A stretch of 33,145 bases of DNA, taken from Treponema sp. (GTDB lineage: Bacteria > Spirochaetota > Spirochaetia > Treponematales > Breznakiellaceae). The DNA lies in contig WRIX01000016.1 of the NCBI GenBank assembly GCA_009782495.1, positions 1 to 33,145 of the forward strand, given 5' to 3'. Every line of letters begins with the position of its first letter. Position 1 is the stretch's first letter. Below, one piece after another: positions 6,585 through 17,563 of the stretch. The position numbers were made by a program, and so were the translations under genes. The notes beneath the pieces were generated by a model. It was not told the origin of the DNA and did not search any database. It saw only the letters and a program-made list of their open reading frames with translations.

Positions 6585-8138
6585 ATGTCCAAAATTTGCC
6601 TTTGCCTGACCGAAAAAACAATTTCCCGGAATCTCGAACTAATAGAAAAGTACCATAAATACATCGACATGGCAGAATTGCGCGTGGACTGCCTGCATCC
6701 GGATGAAAATTTTTATATACGGCAATTTCCCCGGCAGGCAGGAATTCCGGTAATCCTGACCATACGGCGAAAACAAGACGGCGGGTTTTATTCAAGCGGC
6801 GAAGGTTCCAGGGTCGCCCTGCTTTCCAGGGGTCTTGCTTTTGCGGAAGCGGATAAACGGTATAATTTTGCCTATGTGGATTTGGAAGAAGATCTGGAAG
6901 TACCGGGTCTGGAAGAGGCGGTACGTACTTTTGGTACCAGAATTATACGGTCATACCACAATTTTACCGGAATAGGTAATATTTACGAAAAAATCAAAAG
7001 TTTACGAAGAATAGGAGACGAAATTGCCAAAATAGCGGTAATGCCGCAGGACTTAAACGATGTCATGTCAATTTACAATGCAAGCAGGGAAACCCTGGGG
7101 TTGGAAAAAATTATAGTTGGTATGGGGCCTTATGGCCTTAATACCAGGATTCTTTCGGAAAAACTCGGTTCTTTTTTAAGTTACACTTCCGAAACTGAAG
7201 GATCGGATCAGGCTTCCGCCGTACTGGGACACATTAGCCCCAGAGACCTGGTGGAAAAGTACCGTTTCAGGGATATCAGCTCGGCAACAGATATATACGG
7301 CGTTGTTGGGTTTCCTTTAAGTACAACCTACAGTCCGCGGATATATAACACTGTTTTCAGCCGTGAAAAGATAGATGCCGTTTATATTCCCTTTCCGGCC
7401 CATAACCTTGACTACTTTCTGGAACTGGCGGAAGACCTGAATATTAAAGGCGCAGCCGTTACTATCCCATACAAAGAAGAAATTATCCATCATCTTAGCA
7501 ATGTCTCCGGTTCTGTCCAGATAGCCGGAGCATGTAATACCATTAAGGCTCTAGGGATGATTACCAGATCATTGCCGGGCGAATCTGTTTCCAAGGTCTG
7601 GAGCGGCACCAATACCGACACTTTGGGATTCACCGAATCACTCTTAAGCTTTTTGGAAAGAAAACATCTGCGCGGCCAAAAAATAACCGTCATTGGCGCC
7701 GGAGGTGCAGCCAGGGCGGCGGTATCGGAGATTTTCCGGTTAAAAGGAAAATGCCTTATTCTAAACCGTAATGCTGTCCGGGCCAGGGAATTGGCGTTAA
7801 ATTACGGTTATGCCTGGGGAGGGCTGGACAGCCAGGCTCTTGACAGCATGGAACGGTATTCAGATATTATTATTCAGACTACGCCGGTTGGAACATTCCC
7901 CAACACGGAAGATGATCCTTTTGAATTGTACCATTTTAACGGCCATGAAACCGTAATGGATCTGATTTATAATCCGATGCAGACGGCTTTTCTAAAAAGA
8001 GCACTGACAGCAGGCTGCCGGGTACTGAATGGCATGGATATGCTGCTCAGACAGGCAAAACACCAGTATGAGTATATTCTTGAACGGGATTTCCCCGAAC
8101 ATCTCATACCGGCCCTGTTGGGATTATTAAAGAAATAG
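6585..8138 (+). CDS. aroDE: Fused 3-dehydroquinate dehydratase / shikimate dehydrogenase
   Basis: This 517-aa protein carries out two successive steps of the shikimate pathway, 3-dehydroquinate to 3-dehydroshikimate to shikimate. Residues of about 1-228 are a type I dehydroquinase: ELRVD (31-35), LTIR (58-61), catalytic H125 in RSYHNF, and Schiff-base K149 in AKIAVMPQ. Residues of about 236-517 are shikimate dehydrogenase: substrate-binding STTYSP (246-251), catalytic K297 in VTIPYKE, NTDTLGF, an NADP-binding GAGGAARAA and a C-terminal GMDMLLRQA. Such fusions are known in plants and Chlamydia. The usual APGQ near the end of the dehydroquinase half reads VLGH here. GGGAG lies about 10 nt before the ATG. 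Confidence 0.93.
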   Translation: MSKICLCLTEKTISRNLELIEKYHKYIDMAELRVDCLHPDENFYIRQFPRQAGIPVILTIRRKQDGGFYSSGEGSRVALLSRGLAFAEADKRYNFAYVDLEEDLEVPGLEEAVRTFGTRIIRSYHNFTGIGNIYEKIKSLRRIGDEIAKIAVMPQDLNDVMSIYNASRETLGLEKIIVGMGPYGLNTRILSEKLGSFLSYTSETEGSDQASAVLGHISPRDLVEKYRFRDISSATDIYGVVGFPLSTTYSPRIYNTVFSREKIDAVYIPFPAHNLDYFLELAEDLNIKGAAVTIPYKEEIIHHLSNVSGSVQIAGACNTIKALGMITRSLPGESVSKVWSGTNTDTLGFTESLLSFLERKHLRGQKITVIGAGGAARAAVSEIFRLKGKCLILNRNAVRARELALNYGYAWGGLDSQALDSMERYSDIIIQTTPVGTFPNTEDDPFELYHFNGHETVMDLIYNPMQTAFLKRALTAGCRVLNGMDMLLRQAKHQYEYILERDFPEHLIPALLGLLKK

Positions 8139-8151
8139 CAGGAGTTATACT

Positions 8152-8706
8152 ATGACTGATGAAACAAAGGATATTATTGACAGGGTTAAAGTACTCAGAG
8201 AAATTGCGGAAATATCACGGGAAGAACTTTGCCGTGAACTGGGTTTTGATTGCGCCGAATATCAACAATGGGAAGAAGGCGTAACGGACTTTCCAATAGG
8301 CGCTCTGGTAGAAATAGCCGCCCATTTTAAAATTGATCTTACAGAGCTGATAAACGGCCGTCCGTCAAGGCTTACAACCTATTGCATTACCAGGGCAGGC
8401 AACGCTCCGGAAGTAAGCCGGCGGCCCATGTACGGTTACTGGAACCTGGCCTTTAAGTTTCACAATAAAAGGGGAGAACCCTTTTTGGTAGAAGCCAATC
8501 CGGAAACAGAAAATAAACCTCTGAGCCTGAATACCCACCCTGGTCATGAATTTGATTATGTCCTGGAAGGGCGGCTCCTTATGTCTGTTGGAGGGCACGA
8601 GGAAGAGCTAGGGCCGGGAGATTGCATTTACTATGATTCCAACGAACCCCATGGAATGAAAGCCCTGGGAGGCAGCAAAGCCAAATTTTTTGCAATAATC
8701 ATGTAG
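8152..8706 (+). CDS. XRE helix-turn-helix / cupin regulator
   Basis: The N-terminal XRE domain (about 10-70, IDRVKVLREIAEISREELCRELGFDCAEYQQWEEG) is joined to a C-terminal cupin (about 110-184, HPGHEFDYVLEGRLLMSVGGHEEELGPGDCIYYDSNEPHGM). The cupin keeps the two sequence blocks expected for a metal or small-molecule pocket (H-x-H-x-E-like HPGHEFDYVLEG and PHGM). Proteins of this layout are one-component regulators, often controlling transport or metabolism of the ligand they bind; the ligand here is unknown. AGGAG lies 8 nt before the ATG. The gene starts 13 bp after aroDE, so it probably shares its transcript. The downstream terminator is broken (see the citrate synthase fragment). Confidence 0.85.
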   Translation: MTDETKDIIDRVKVLREIAEISREELCRELGFDCAEYQQWEEGVTDFPIGALVEIAAHFKIDLTELINGRPSRLTTYCITRAGNAPEVSRRPMYGYWNLAFKFHNKRGEPFLVEANPETENKPLSLNTHPGHEFDYVLEGRLLMSVGGHEEELGPGDCIYYDSNEPHGMKALGGSKAKFFAIIM

Positions 8707-8710
8707 TTAA

Positions 8711-8724
8711 GCCTGTTCCAAAAC
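8711..8724 (+). repeat. Left half of a TGTTCCAAAA hairpin repeat, ending at a breakpoint
   Basis: GCCTGTTCCAAAAC matches the left arm of the complete hairpin at 19256-19282. The right arm is missing, and homology to citrate synthase begins about 8 bp later. The element was probably the terminator of the XRE/cupin gene before the DNA to its right was lost or misjoined. Confidence 0.55.
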
Positions 8725-8731
8725 CTGAACG

Positions 8732-9520
8732 GCGCATTACTACGACCATGAAAGTTTAATCATCCACATGCCGGAACAGGATAGTTCCATTGCCGAAAGC
8801 CTTCTTTCCCTGATACGGCCCGACCAGCGCTTTACCCAACTGGAAGCGGAAATCCTGGACCTGGCATTAATCCTCCATGCCGAACACGGAGGAGGCAATA
8901 ACTCTACATTTGCCGTACACCTTGTTTCTTCCGCCGACACCGATACTTTTTCCGCCATCTCTGCGGGAATTGTTTCTCTGAAAGGCTACAAGCACGGCGG
9001 TGCGAATATCAAAGTAATGCAAATGATGGACGACATCAAAAAGAATGTAGAGCATTGGGACAGCGAAGCGGAAGTGGCTGATTACCTGGAAAAAATCCTT
9101 TTAAAAAAAGCCAACGATGGTTCCGGGCTTATCTACGGTCAGGGCCATGCTGTGTATACCATAAGCGATCCCCGTGCACGGCTGCTCCGCGACAAAGCCG
9201 CCAGCCTTGCAGAAGAAAAAAAACTAATGGATGAATTTAACCTGTACTGCCTTATTGAACGCCTTACACCGGAAGTGTTCAGTAAAATAAAAGGTTCCGA
9301 CAAAAAGATTTGCACTAACGTGGATTTTTATTCAGGTTTTGTTTATGGAATGCTGGCAATCCCGCCGGATCTCTATACAACACTTTTTGCCATAAGCCGT
9401 GTCGCCGGGTGGTGCGCTCATCGTTTGGAAGAAATAATTGCCGGAGGAAGAATAATACGCCCCGCTTACAAATGCGTCCAGAAAAGGCATGGGTATACAC
9501 CTCTTGCGGAACGAAAATGA
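8732..9520 (+). pseudogene. Citrate synthase, 5'-truncated (C-terminal ~60% only)
   Basis: The open frame from ATG 8768 encodes 250 aa; a complete citrate synthase has about 430. In-frame homology actually extends upstream of the ATG to about 8732 (AHYYDHESLIIHMPEQ) and then meets TGA at 8726, so the ATG is an internal methionine. What remains is the C-terminal catalytic portion with active-site histidines in HAEHGGGNNST and YKHGGAN, YGQGHAVYTISDPRA, the aspartate in NVDFYSG and RVAGWCAHRLEE. The N-terminal helical part is gone, and no ribosome site precedes the ATG. It is most likely a remnant, or the result of a bad assembly join. If expressed it would probably not fold as a normal dimer. 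Confidence 0.85.
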
Positions 9521-9783: not shown

Positions 9784-11049
9784 TCACCCCGGCGGCCAGC
9801 CCAGAGTACGCCCGCCAAGCACATGAAGATGAATATGCTCCACAGTCTGCATACCGTCGGATTTGCAGTTGATCACAAAACGGCCTCCTTTTTCGGCACA
9901 GCCCTGCTCTGCCAGTAATTCCTGGGCTTTGTGGAGCAGTTTTCCAAGAAGAGCTGCATCTTCCGGTTTGGTTTCCATTACGTTAGCCAGGTGTTTCTTG
10001 GGGATAACCAGGAAATGAACCGGAGCCTGGGGCGAAATATCATGGAAGGCCAGTACATCATCATCTTCGTAGGAAAGTCCATTAAGATATTTTTCTGTTG
10101 TATAAAGCCCTTCAGGTTCAATAAAAACATGATGACGGTTCCTGTCGGGAAAACGCACCACCTTGTCTTCTATGGAAGGACAATATCGCGCCCCTGTTCC
10201 TTTTATTTTTCCGCCGTAAAGAGGTGAACGATGAATATTATCCCTGATAATCCGGTGAGTTTCCGCCGTTGTATAGCAGATCCAGCACGGTACAGATTTC
10301 CGATTGATGAATTTTTCCGGAATTGATTCAAAATCAAACGAAAACGGAGCAAATTCTTCTCCATCCTGTTTTTCCATACTGCTGTAATCAACAGAATCTC
10401 CGTCTATGCGCGCAGGTGTCCCCGTTTTTAACCTGCCCACCGGAAAACCATTGTTACGCAGAAATTTTCCAAGTCCCAAAGCAGCTTCTTCACCCAGTCT
10501 GCCATGAAGAGCATCGTATTCTCCAATAAAAATTTTCCCTTCCATGAAGGTTCCTGCTGCCAGGATCACTGTTTTTGCACTGATTCTGTGTCCGCGGACT
10601 GTAATTACGCCTGTAACACAGCCCAACATCGTGTAAATTTCATGATCTTTCGATCGATTTTTATCTTTATCAATAATTAATTCCGTTACTGTGTCCATCA
10701 TAACCGAAAGATATCTTTGATTCTCGATAATATTCCGTGCTGCACACTGATATGCATTTTTATCCGCCTGAGCACGCGGAGCTTGAACTGCAGGACCCCT
10801 GGCTTTGTTTAAAATTCGATATTGAATCATCGTTTGATCGATCAAATGAGCCATTGCTCCGCCTAAAGCATCTACTTCACGTACCAAATTTCCTTTGGAG
10901 AGGCCGCCAACTGCGGGATTACAGGATAAAGCGCCGATACGATCGGGATTCTGTGTGATGAGAAGTGTGTTTAATCCAAGTCTTGATACGGCAAGAGATG
11001 CTTCTATACCTGCATGACCTCCGCCAATAACAATACAATCGTAATCCAT
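9784..11049 (-). CDS. In-frame chimera: N-terminal half of MnmG fused to most of a HinT (HIT) protein
   Basis: Residues 1-326 are the start of MnmG (GidA), the FAD-dependent tRNA uridine-34 modification enzyme. They include the FAD motif IVIGGGHAG, GALSCNPAVGG, KTGTPARIDG and IEPEGLYTTEKYLNGLS. A normal MnmG has about 620-630 aa and continues NGLSTSLP. Here, at about 10069-10074, the frame switches without interruption into a histidine-triad protein: YEDDDVLAFHDISPQAPVHFLVIPKKH through the triad HIHLHVLGG and the usual ending WPPG. HinT has lost only about its first 20 residues. The product lacks the MnmG C-terminal domain that binds MnmE and tRNA, so tRNA modification is unlikely; the HIT half could still hydrolyse phosphoramidates. 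It is either a deletion fusion or a chimeric assembly. Confidence 0.9.
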   Translation of the reverse strand: MDYDCIVIGGGHAGIEASLAVSRLGLNTLLITQNPDRIGALSCNPAVGGLSKGNLVREVDALGGAMAHLIDQTMIQYRILNKARGPAVQAPRAQADKNAYQCAARNIIENQRYLSVMMDTVTELIIDKDKNRSKDHEIYTMLGCVTGVITVRGHRISAKTVILAAGTFMEGKIFIGEYDALHGRLGEEAALGLGKFLRNNGFPVGRLKTGTPARIDGDSVDYSSMEKQDGEEFAPFSFDFESIPEKFINRKSVPCWICYTTAETHRIIRDNIHRSPLYGGKIKGTGARYCPSIEDKVVRFPDRNRHHVFIEPEGLYTTEKYLNGLSYEDDDVLAFHDISPQAPVHFLVIPKKHLANVMETKPEDAALLGKLLHKAQELLAEQGCAEKGGRFVINCKSDGMQTVEHIHLHVLGGRTLGWPPG

Positions 11050-11218: not shown

Positions 11219-11611
11219 ATGCCTACTGCAAAGAAGCCTGCAGCGAAAAAGCCCGCAGCGAAAAAACCCGCAGCGAAAAAACCTGCAGCGAAAAAGCCCG
11301 CAGCAAAAAAACCGGCGGTAAAAAAACCCGCAGCGAAAAAACCCGCAGCGAAAAAACCCGCGGTAAAGAAAGCAGCGGCAAAGAAACCGGCGGCGAAAAA
11401 ACCCGCGGCGAAAAAACCTGCAGCAAAGAAGCCTGCAGCAAAGAAGCCTGCGGCGAAAAAGCCTGCGGCAAAAAAACCCGCAGCGAAAAAGCCTGCGGTA
11501 AAGAAACCTGCAGTAAAGAAGGCAGCGGCAAAAGCGGTAAAAAAAGTTTTAGTTAAAAAACCCGCAGACAAGCCCTCAGAACCTTCTGGCTCCAGTTTTC
11601 CCTTCTTTTAG
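11219..11611 (+). CDS. Lysine/alanine/proline-rich histone H1-like protein
   Basis: Nearly the whole 130-aa protein is tandem repeats of a five-residue unit, KKPAA or a close variant (KKPAV, KKAAA), about 20 copies, ending in a short polar tail (DKPSEPSGSSFPFF). This is the composition of histone H1 tails and of bacterial H1-like proteins such as chlamydial Hc2 and AlgP, which bind DNA and compact or regulate the nucleoid. Homology to any one of them cannot be claimed from such low-complexity sequence. AAGGAG 6 nt before the ATG and a spaced promoter support real expression. The DNA is a run of imperfect 15-bp repeats, so copy number may vary between strains. The long minus-strand frame opposite it (GFFAAGFF) is a shadow. 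Confidence 0.85.
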   Translation: MPTAKKPAAKKPAAKKPAAKKPAAKKPAAKKPAVKKPAAKKPAAKKPAVKKAAAKKPAAKKPAAKKPAAKKPAAKKPAAKKPAAKKPAAKKPAVKKPAVKKAAAKAVKKVLVKKPADKPSEPSGSSFPFF

Positions 11612-13875: not shown

Positions 13876-14484
13876 ATGAACGATACAGGCGCCTTGCGGG
13901 CAAGCAGAGCGCTCATACATATTGATTATTTGCATGACAACATCTCTTTAGTCCGAAAAAAAACAGGAACAAAGATCTGTATGCCCGTTAAAGCAGATGC
14001 ATACGGCCACGGCGCCCTGCACATTGCAAAAGCCGCACTGAATTCGGGAGTGGAATATCTGGCGGTGGCTACTGTCGGGGAGGGAAAAGAATTACGGGAC
14101 GGAGGGATTCTGTCTCCCATTATCCTTCTTTCTTTAGTCCTGCCCGAAGAAATTGATGCTCTTATCGCCGCAGATCTTGAACCCCTGGTAAGCGACACCG
14201 AATATATAGAAATACTGGAAAGAAGCGCGGCCAAAGCAGGAAAAAAAGTTCCTGTTCACCTTAAAGTTGATACAGGTATGGGGCGCATAGGATGTAAACC
14301 CGAAGAAGCGGCAGAGCTTGCTGTTACCATTGCAAAAAGCAAAAATCTTGATATGGCAGGCACAGCCACGCATTTGGCAGTGTCCGATTCGCCGGACAGC
14401 GGAGATATTGCCTATACCAAAAACCAGTTGGATAGTTTTTCTACTGCCGTAGAAAACATTAAAAAAGCCGGTATTGATCCATAA
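13876..14484 (+). pseudogene. alr: Alanine racemase, 3'-truncated
   Basis: Alanine racemase converts L- to D-alanine with pyridoxal phosphate for peptidoglycan. The first 202 residues are a good match to the TIM-barrel half: ALIHIDYLHDNISLVRKKTG, the cofactor lysine in MPVKADAYGHGA and LKVDTGMGRIGC. The family length is about 370. The frame ends right after NIKKAGIDP with TAA, where a normal gene continues toward the C-terminal beta domain that supplies the catalytic tyrosine. From here on the DNA encodes ClpP in another frame. The product could not racemise alanine on its own. If this is the only copy, the join is suspect or the cell has another D-alanine source. Confidence 0.88.
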
Positions 14485-14962
14485 GGATCTTGCAGAACGT
14501 ACCATACGCCAGCTTTTGCTGCTGGATGAAGAAAACGAAAAACCGGTAAGGATTTTTATAGATTCGCCTGGCGGAGACGCTGACGCCGGCTTTGCAATCT
14601 TTGATATGATACGTTTTGTAAAAGCGCCTGTTTGGACAGTGGGCATGGGTTTGGTGGCAAGCGCCGCTGCAATAATACAACTGGCTGCCCCCAAAGAAAG
14701 AAGGGTTGGCCTTCCCAACAGTCATTACCTTATTCACCAGCCGCTTTCGGGAATACGCGGGGTGGCTACGGACATCGAAATTCATGCCAGAGAACTGGAA
14801 AAACTCAGGGCAAAGATCAACATACTTATTGCCGGGGAAACAGGTATAGAGTTAAGTCAGGTGGAAAAAGACACCGACAGAGACTACTGGATGAACGGAG
14901 AAGAAGCGGTAAAATACGGCCTTATCTCCAAAATAATTTTACACAGGGAGGAAATGCCATGA
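14474..14962 (+). pseudogene. clpP: ClpP-family serine protease, 5'-truncated
   Basis: The frame encodes about 162 aa matching ClpP from KDLAERTIRQLLLLDEEN onward. ClpP is the barrel-shaped protease that degrades proteins fed by Clp ATPases. The catalytic residues are present: Ser in GLVASAAA, His in YLIHQPLSG and Asp in DTDRDYWMNGEEA. About 35-45 N-terminal residues, which normally form the axial loops and first strands, are missing. The only start is a TTG inside the alr coding sequence with no ribosome site. Its stop overlaps the start of the next gene (ATGA), so the intact ancestor was probably co-translated with it. It is likely a remnant of a divergent ClpP paralogue, or a mis-assembly. 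Confidence 0.82.
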
Positions 14963-15777: not shown

Positions 15778-15827
15778 ATATTGCACAATACTAAGGCTTT
15801 ACAGAAATAAAGCAGCGCTTCTAAAAG

Positions 15828-15856
15828 TTGACAGCCTCATTAACAAATGCTAAATT
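15828..15856 (+). promoter_or_regulatory. Promoter of hicBA
   Basis: Consensus TTGACA (15828-15833) is followed after 17 nt by TAAATT (15851-15856). The hicB ATG at 15863 is 6 nt further on and no ribosome site fits in between, so the transcript should be leaderless. Confidence 0.65.
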
Positions 15857-15862
15857 AAAAAA

Positions 15863-16048
15863 ATGGAATTATCATACACGTATGAAAAAGGCGAAAAATA
15901 TCTCGTTGGCCATTTTGACAATTATCCCGAATTTCCTACGCAAGGCAAAGATTTGCAGGACTTAGAGGATCACTTAAAGGAAATTTTCAACTGGATACAG
16001 GATGGTACACTTGAGCCAAAACGCCATGGGGTTTTAAAAATCGCTTAA
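15863..16048 (+). CDS. hicB: HicB-like antitoxin (short form)
   Basis: This 61-aa protein has the HicB partial RNase H-like fold pattern: YTYEKGEKYLVGHFDNYPEFPTQGKDLQDLEDHLKEIFNWIQDG. HicB proteins bind and neutralise the HicA mRNA interferase. The DNA-binding domain seen in longer HicB proteins is absent, which is common in the short form. Its stop codon overlaps the start of hicA (TAATG), the usual tight coupling of toxin-antitoxin pairs. A strong, probably leaderless promoter lies immediately upstream. Here antitoxin precedes toxin, the less common order for this family. Confidence 0.75.
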   Translation: MELSYTYEKGEKYLVGHFDNYPEFPTQGKDLQDLEDHLKEIFNWIQDGTLEPKRHGVLKIA

Positions 16049-16230
16049 TGAAGCGTTCCGAGTTTATAAAAATTCTTGCAAAAAATGAGGTGATATTTTT
16101 TCGCAACGGATCAAACCATGATATTTACATACAGAGTAAAACAGGAAAAAAAGTTTCTGTTCCCCGGCATGGTGAAATAGATAATATACTTGTAAAAGAA
16201 ATTCTTAAAGAACTGCAAATTGTAAAATAA
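16048..16230 (+). CDS. hicA: HicA-like toxin (mRNA interferase)
   Basis: This 60-aa protein fits the double-stranded RNA-binding-like fold of HicA/YcfA: MKRSEFIKILAKNEVIFFRNGSNHDIYIQSKTGKKVSVPRHGEID then an LVKEILKELQI helix. The conserved catalytic histidine lies in GSNHDIY. HicA toxins cleave mRNA and slow growth when not held by HicB. Length is normal. The start overlaps the hicB stop, so translation is coupled. It converges with the transporter gene at 16262. The pair is the only toxin-antitoxin module I recognise in the window. Confidence 0.8.
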   Translation: MKRSEFIKILAKNEVIFFRNGSNHDIYIQSKTGKKVSVPRHGEIDNILVKEILKELQIVK

Positions 16231-16261
16231 ATTCCGGTGCGGCTGGGCTGCCACCTCAGGA

Positions 16262-17563
16262 TTACCGCCACACCACCCAAACAAACAGGGCAGAAAATGC
16301 CGTGGTAAGCGCCGTAAAAGGCAGGCCTATCTTTAACCACTGGGCAAAGTTCATCTTAACGCCCTGTTTGCGGAGTATCCCGACGGTAACAACATTGGCG
16401 GAGGCGCCGAAGGGTGTAAGGTTCCCGCCCATGCAGGAACCTACAAGCAGGGCAAACATAAACAGTTCCGGTTTAAGGGAAAGATCATTTGAAAGTGTAG
16501 CGGCTACAGGTAGCATAACGATGATATATGGCACATTATCCACAAAGCCGGAAATCAGGACAGAAACTACTACGATCAACACAAAGCCAAGAAGTACATT
16601 ATCGCCAATAATACGACAAAGGAAAGCGACAAAGTCTTCGAGGAGCCCTACGGAAGAAATGGCGCCTACCGCTACAAATATTCCAATTAAAAAAAACGTT
16701 GTGTCCCAATCTAGGCCTTTAATAAGTTCCAGGACTTTTTCAGAACTTTCCTTTCGGACCCAGCGGTACCACACAAGACCAGCTATGGCAAGGATAACCA
16801 CAACAAGCCCCGAAGCCAGGGAAAGACCGCCGTATATATAAGATGCACCGGCAAGCCCTGCAATCATCAGGATTAAAAGCCAGGAAGGAACCATGGAAAG
16901 GTTTTTTTCCTTTTCCACTTCCACTTTTTTTCCGCCGTCTTTGGCAAAGATCCAGTAAAAGTACAAAGCGCCGACAATCATCCCAACCTGAATGGCAAAG
17001 AAAATCGACATCTTTCCCTGATAAAAGATAAAGTCGTTAAAGCCATAGCCTGAATAATCGGCAAAGATCATCGATGGAGGATCGCCTACCAGAGTGGCCG
17101 TCCCCTGAAGGTTCGCCATTACGGCAAGGCCTGTCATAAAGTACATGGGGTTAAGATTCAGTTTGCTGCACATGGCCAGGGCAATGGGCGCCATAACAAG
17201 AACTGTAGCAACATTCTCAACAAAAGCGCTGATAAGCCCTGTCATAATAAGGATCAGCACCATGGCAATACCCACATTGGGGCTTTTCAGGACAATGGTA
17301 TCGGCAATTACCGCCGGGGCACGGGAATAAATAAACAACTCGGCAATAACAAGGCTGCCTATGAAGATCATCAATACATACCAGTTTATTAATTCTGTTC
17401 CGGCTTCATGTATAAGATAACCGGCTGATTCTCCTCCTGTTGCACGGACAAGGATCATTGCCAGTGCAGCTCCCAGGGCGCTCCAGGATTTCTTTTCGGG
17501 AAAGATCACAACCAGCACATACATAAGAATCGCAATGCTGAGTACTATCCATTTTACAGGCAC
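16262..17563 (-). CDS. ArsB/SLC13-type (ion transporter superfamily) permease
   Basis: This 433-aa protein is hydrophobic throughout, with about 11-12 membrane segments. It shows the internal duplication typical of the family: GLISAFVENVATVLVMAPIALA in the first half and SGFVDNVPYIIVMLPVAAT in the second. The paired re-entrant-loop signatures GTATLVGDPPSMI and GGNLTPFGASANVV are also present. Relatives move arsenite, sodium, citrate or other anions. The sequence does not say which, and there is no arsenic-resistance gene nearby. The start is a GTG with AAGGAG 5 nt upstream. It diverges from coaW across 47 bp. Confidence 0.85.
   Translation of the reverse strand: MPVKWIVLSIAILMYVLVVIFPEKKSWSALGAALAMILVRATGGESAGYLIHEAGTELINWYVLMIFIGSLVIAELFIYSRAPAVIADTIVLKSPNVGIAMVLILIMTGLISAFVENVATVLVMAPIALAMCSKLNLNPMYFMTGLAVMANLQGTATLVGDPPSMIFADYSGYGFNDFIFYQGKMSIFFAIQVGMIVGALYFYWIFAKDGGKKVEVEKEKNLSMVPSWLLILMIAGLAGASYIYGGLSLASGLVVVILAIAGLVWYRWVRKESSEKVLELIKGLDWDTTFFLIGIFVAVGAISSVGLLEDFVAFLCRIIGDNVLLGFVLIVVVSVLISGFVDNVPYIIVMLPVAATLSNDLSLKPELFMFALLVGSCMGGNLTPFGASANVVTVGILRKQGVKMNFAQWLKIGLPFTALTTAFSALFVWVVWR

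Follow-up and report, generated by a model that had tools for sequence, protein, structure and literature searches.

What happened where a truncated alanine racemase gene (alr) runs straight into a clpP gene that lacks its beginning? The window analysed here is the whole of contig C16, 33,145 bases, in a 2.41-Mb, 150-contig draft genome of a termite-gut Treponema with an estimated completeness of 86%. An arrangement of this kind may record a deletion in a living lineage, or it may have arisen while the genome was being put together. We favor the second answer: the alr-clpP junction is probably a local assembly collapse in a scaffolded draft.

Those relatives of the alr fragment that have names are metagenome-assembled genomes (MAGs) of termite-gut Treponema. 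The closest relative compared is another termite-gut Treponema MAG, Treponema sp. Nt197P3bin20 (WRIB01000009.1; hereafter G004). The comparison drew on 831 kb from the draft and 1.62 Mb from G004, of which 480 kb aligned. G004 is only ~84% identical to the draft in DNA, and the parent sequence described below is the one inferred from it.

The alr-clpP junction

The window follows G004 alr through position 14480 and G004 clpP from position 14483, placing the junction at 14481..14482, where 2 nt replace 755 nt of G004 with almost no microhomology. On either side, the window is colinear with G004, with ~82% identity to the left and 85% to the right. G004 has both genes whole and adjoining, alr with 389 aa and clpP with 217 aa. 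Gene order and directions are the same as in the window in all four relatives examined at this locus (G001-G004), but G001-G003, which belong to the same genus, have a complete alr adjoining clpP, unlike the window. Across these relatives, the alr open frames span 373-402 codons and the clpP frames 217-236 codons, with a short spacer or an overlap between them; the window is 755 nt short of G004. The alignment with G004 thus confirms what an earlier note had read from the window, namely that a single breakpoint takes the 3' part of alr together with the 5' part of clpP, leaving both genes incomplete. The same note proposed looking for intact copies elsewhere in the genome; profile and sequence searches found none in the draft, and a search of the draft with the missing 755 nt returned chance-level matches only.

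The alr fragment (13876..14484, + strand) encodes residues 1-202 of alanine racemase, matching positions 1-187 of 220 in PF01168 and positions 5-191 of 369 in TIGR00492, the latter with a score of 161, below the cut-off of 168. It is 85% identical in amino acids to the intact 389-aa G004 protein and contains the N-terminal PLP barrel with the PLP lysine, K39, within VKADAYGHG. As had been noted, the protein is intact as far as NIKKAGIDP and then stops; the TAA at 14482-14484 is created by the junction. Residues 203-389 are absent relative to G004, including SVSYG at 267, so the loss of the catalytic-tyrosine domain claimed earlier is real at the sequence level, and the fragment lacks the C-terminal domain of a functional alanine racemase. 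Searches of the 86%-complete draft did not find that domain (PF00842), and the alr fragment used as a query matches only itself there.

The clpP fragment (14474..14962, + strand) lies in a different frame from alr and encodes 162 aa from a TTG. This TTG, at 14474, is the only common start codon in frame ahead of the ClpP homology, and it falls inside the end of alr. The PF00574 match begins at position 25 and the NF011089 match at position 37 (266 bits against a cut-off of 251), and the fragment is 94% identical in amino acids to residues 57-216 of G004 ClpP. The catalytic serine (LVASAAA), histidine (SHYLIH) and aspartate (DRDYW) motifs are all present, in agreement with the earlier statement that the triad survives and the start does not. 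The N-terminal loss was also seen correctly, but its size, given as ~40 residues, was underestimated: ~58 of the 217 G004 residues are absent, the larger figure arising because G004 ClpP carries an acidic N-terminal extension. The missing part includes the N-terminal axial-loop region and the first helix. In known ClpP proteins, the N-terminal region forms axial loops. With this region lost and only a TTG inside alr as a start, we would not expect the fragment, if translated, to make a normal protease.

Could the two frames be joined during translation? A programmed frameshift from alr into clpP was considered and rejected; the AAAAAAG run is out of slippage register by inspection, and it is also present in the intact G004 alr. 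As for other copies, the Clp protease family was found in the draft solely at the alr-clpP locus, with no second clpP, and most relatives do have a second ClpP. No full ClpX was found in the draft either; the best match, on contig C5, is partial, falls below the cut-off, and is putatively HslU. Since a full ClpX is missing as well, the second ClpP may sit in the unrecovered part of the genome.

A palindrome without a role

The earlier note drew attention to the 14-bp inverted repeat GATCC-ATAA-GGATC (GATCCATAAGGATC, 14475..14488), which is indeed present. Its arms are native sequence from the two coding ends, GATCC from alr and GGATC from clpP, and each is also found in G004. The window contains 41 hairpins with 5-bp arms and a 4-nt loop, where Markov-generated sequence leads one to expect ~38. 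A part for the palindrome in forming the junction therefore has no support, and its chance-level frequency led us to reject it as a signature of recombination or restriction. Simple ligation at a cut site was rejected too, because both GATC sites persist with bases between them. The palindrome is a chance product of two coding ends and needs no explanation.

Other blunt losses in the draft

The alr-clpP junction does not stand alone. Two further losses lie in the window, both less than 6 kb from it. At 8706..8735, 2,487 nt of G004 are absent, running from a cupin-regulator gene to the middle of the citrate synthase gene and covering, besides the start of the latter, an AMP-dependent acyl-CoA-ligase-like gene (named by eye). 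The remaining citrate synthase fragment (8768..9520, + strand) matches positions 143-357 of 357 in PF00285 and shares 96% amino-acid identity with the C-terminal part of the G004 enzyme. At 10072..10072, another 1,171 nt of G004 are absent: the 3' part of mnmG, the 5' part of a gene for a HIT-family protein, and the spacer between them, which contains a dispersed repeat. This third loss produces an in-frame fusion ORF (9784..11049, - strand) that joins MnmG residues 1-326 to the C-terminal 95 residues of the HIT-family protein. In G004, mnmG and the HIT gene are distinct and intact, and the ends that match those joined here lie 1,171 nt apart. The fusion would read as a new domain architecture.

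Within the 480 kb aligned, there are nine blunt, gene-cutting losses in the draft and about one in G004. Three of the nine are in the window, contigs C2, C4, C5 and C36 have one each, and C29 has two; the other genes cut (named by eye) include epmA-like, xerC-like and purF-like genes and further genes. The count comes from a sample, 831 kb of 2.41 Mb, so we speak of at least eight losses besides alr-clpP. The apparent microhomology at the loss junctions is 0-3 bp.

Do the lost segments have a common cause? The ~175-bp dispersed repeat in the G004 HIT-mnmG spacer (L107 ~6735-6910) has ~30 copies or part copies across the draft. Repeats within the lost segments were rejected as a common cause, since only some of the segments hold any. 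An assembly bubble, with the missing segments lying on another contig, was rejected as well; only the dispersed repeat from the mnmG-HIT spacer and short repeat pieces were found. A different kind of artefact would be chimeras from whole-genome amplification, if the draft was made from amplified DNA. Such chimeras can be local, with tiny homology at the junction, but most of them are inverted, and joins between distant or inverted places are nearly absent here, with only three non-colinear joins of any kind in the sample. We regard this explanation as hardly credible.

Some other features of the window deserve mention. At 15783-16262, ~480 nt that are not in G004 encode a HicA toxin-family protein (PF07927), preceded by a small ORF with a HicB-like look and no Pfam match; the segment is a whole-module insertion or loss between genes. 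A lysine/alanine/proline repeat protein encoded at 11219-11611 (+) matches the histone H1-like HC2 family (PF07382), and aroDE at 6585-8138 (+) encodes a type I 3-dehydroquinase fused with a shikimate dehydrogenase.

Gene decay or assembly error?

Genes in natural decay usually gather small indels and stop codons as well as large losses. Among 306 G004 genes testable in the draft, 273 are intact, ~10 are interrupted by large losses, and frameshifts are absent. In-frame stops in the translated search fall close to gene ends and can be put down to start choice or a slightly shorter protein. The one exception is a stop at position 126 in a frame of 201 residues; a long antisense frame overlaps this frame, which may be no gene. 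Swapping draft and G004 gave a similar background. dN/dS is 0.15 for alr, 0.03 for clpP, 0.05 for citrate synthase and 0.12 for mnmG, in the same range as their whole neighbours; the substitutions in alr and clpP that can be polarised by lineage are too few to bear on relaxed selection. The frameshifts, nonsense mutations and relaxed selection of decaying pseudogenes are thus not seen, and the supporting sign of local assembly error, recurring clean joins that cut genes without point lesions, is seen nine times. Nine large clean losses with no small indels or stops beside them point to assembly.

How might such a collapse arise? The living cell would carry an ordinary alr-clpP pair, of which the draft assembly skips ~755 bases. 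The flanks would then be joined bluntly over unassembled sequence, yielding an alr cut short, a clpP without its head and a small palindrome without meaning. Several such local collapses would exist in the draft, three of them within the window. The draft's scaffolding shows in 15 N-runs across the 831 kb sampled, and in both N-runs that can be checked cleanly, the count of Ns and the distance in G004 differ by more than 100 nt. Removal of N-runs was rejected as a blanket cause, since the draft still contains them.

Four points weigh against a collapse. First, de Bruijn assembly as a rule links two contigs only where reads or shared k-mers connect them; here the parental ends have almost no sequence in common, so each join must come from some molecule or from a gap-closing step. 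Second, the losses reach ~2.5 kb, more than the scaffold gaps of ~100-550 bp elsewhere in the draft. Third, the parent sequence is taken from a relative with a DNA identity of only ~84%. Fourth, real short deletions would likewise be local, forward and blunt.

These points leave room for a true deletion of recent date. Illegitimate end joining would have removed ~755 bp in this lineage and inactivated alr and clpP at one stroke, within a wave of short deletions in a genome that is losing genes, with D-alanine coming from another enzyme or from neighbours. We consider it unlikely. The junctions do resemble blunt or microhomology deletions, but several conserved genes would have been cut simultaneously while the fragments stayed under purifying selection and ~306 genes acquired neither a frameshift nor a convincing internal nonsense mutation. 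Losing alr in truth would also be costly: the D-Ala-D-Ala ligase is intact in the draft, no other Alr was found there, and the sole class-IV aminotransferase recovered is of the IlvE type, resembling a branched-chain enzyme, so the cell would have to obtain D-alanine in a way that the draft does not show. Within the genus, PF00842 is present in all four other genomes. In the wider family, however, the Alr C-terminal domain was not found in about 35 of 150 genomes, including 3 of the 39 high-quality ones, which makes loss of alr conceivable in the family; alr may be dispensable in some relatives. Six family genomes (G011, G012, G014, G018, G020 and G022) yielded neither a homologue of the alr fragment nor the Alr C-terminal domain, and alr has possibly been truly lost in, for example, G014, which is 98% complete.

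The broader proposal has this lineage in a burst of short blunt deletions, with the functions of alr, a clpP, mnmG and citrate synthase gone before point decay set in; it seems to us more doubtful still. If true, it would be symbiont genome reduction caught in the act, and the deletions, if real, would offer a rare view of gene loss at an early stage in a symbiont of the gut.

An intermediate explanation is a mixed population, in which the assembler picked a deletion path while other cells carry intact genes. Real reads would then span the junction without costly gene loss in every cell, and blunt joins are compatible with this. Assemblers usually keep the majority variant, however, and the intact path is absent from the draft; moreover, several such loci would have to coincide. 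We give this explanation a slim chance.

Implications and comparison with known assembly errors

Assembly error thus remains the most likely explanation, because the same clean gaps recur at no fewer than eight other places and the ordinary mutations of gene decay are absent. Of the deletion put forward in the earlier note, the absence of sequence stands; that it is a true deletion is doubtful on the same grounds. The living cell probably has both genes intact, with no change of function, and we infer that reads would not support the alr-clpP join. Claims of a lost essential gene or a new fusion drawn from this draft, for alr, clpP or MnmG-HIT, should not be trusted without reads.

The problem is a general one. 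MAG curators describe local assembly errors that are left uncorrected as a route by which incomplete or incorrect genes enter databases (PMC7111523). The local assembly errors described in draft metagenome genomes leave truncated or fused genes at joins in a contig that is otherwise colinear (PMC7111523), and the window looks the same.
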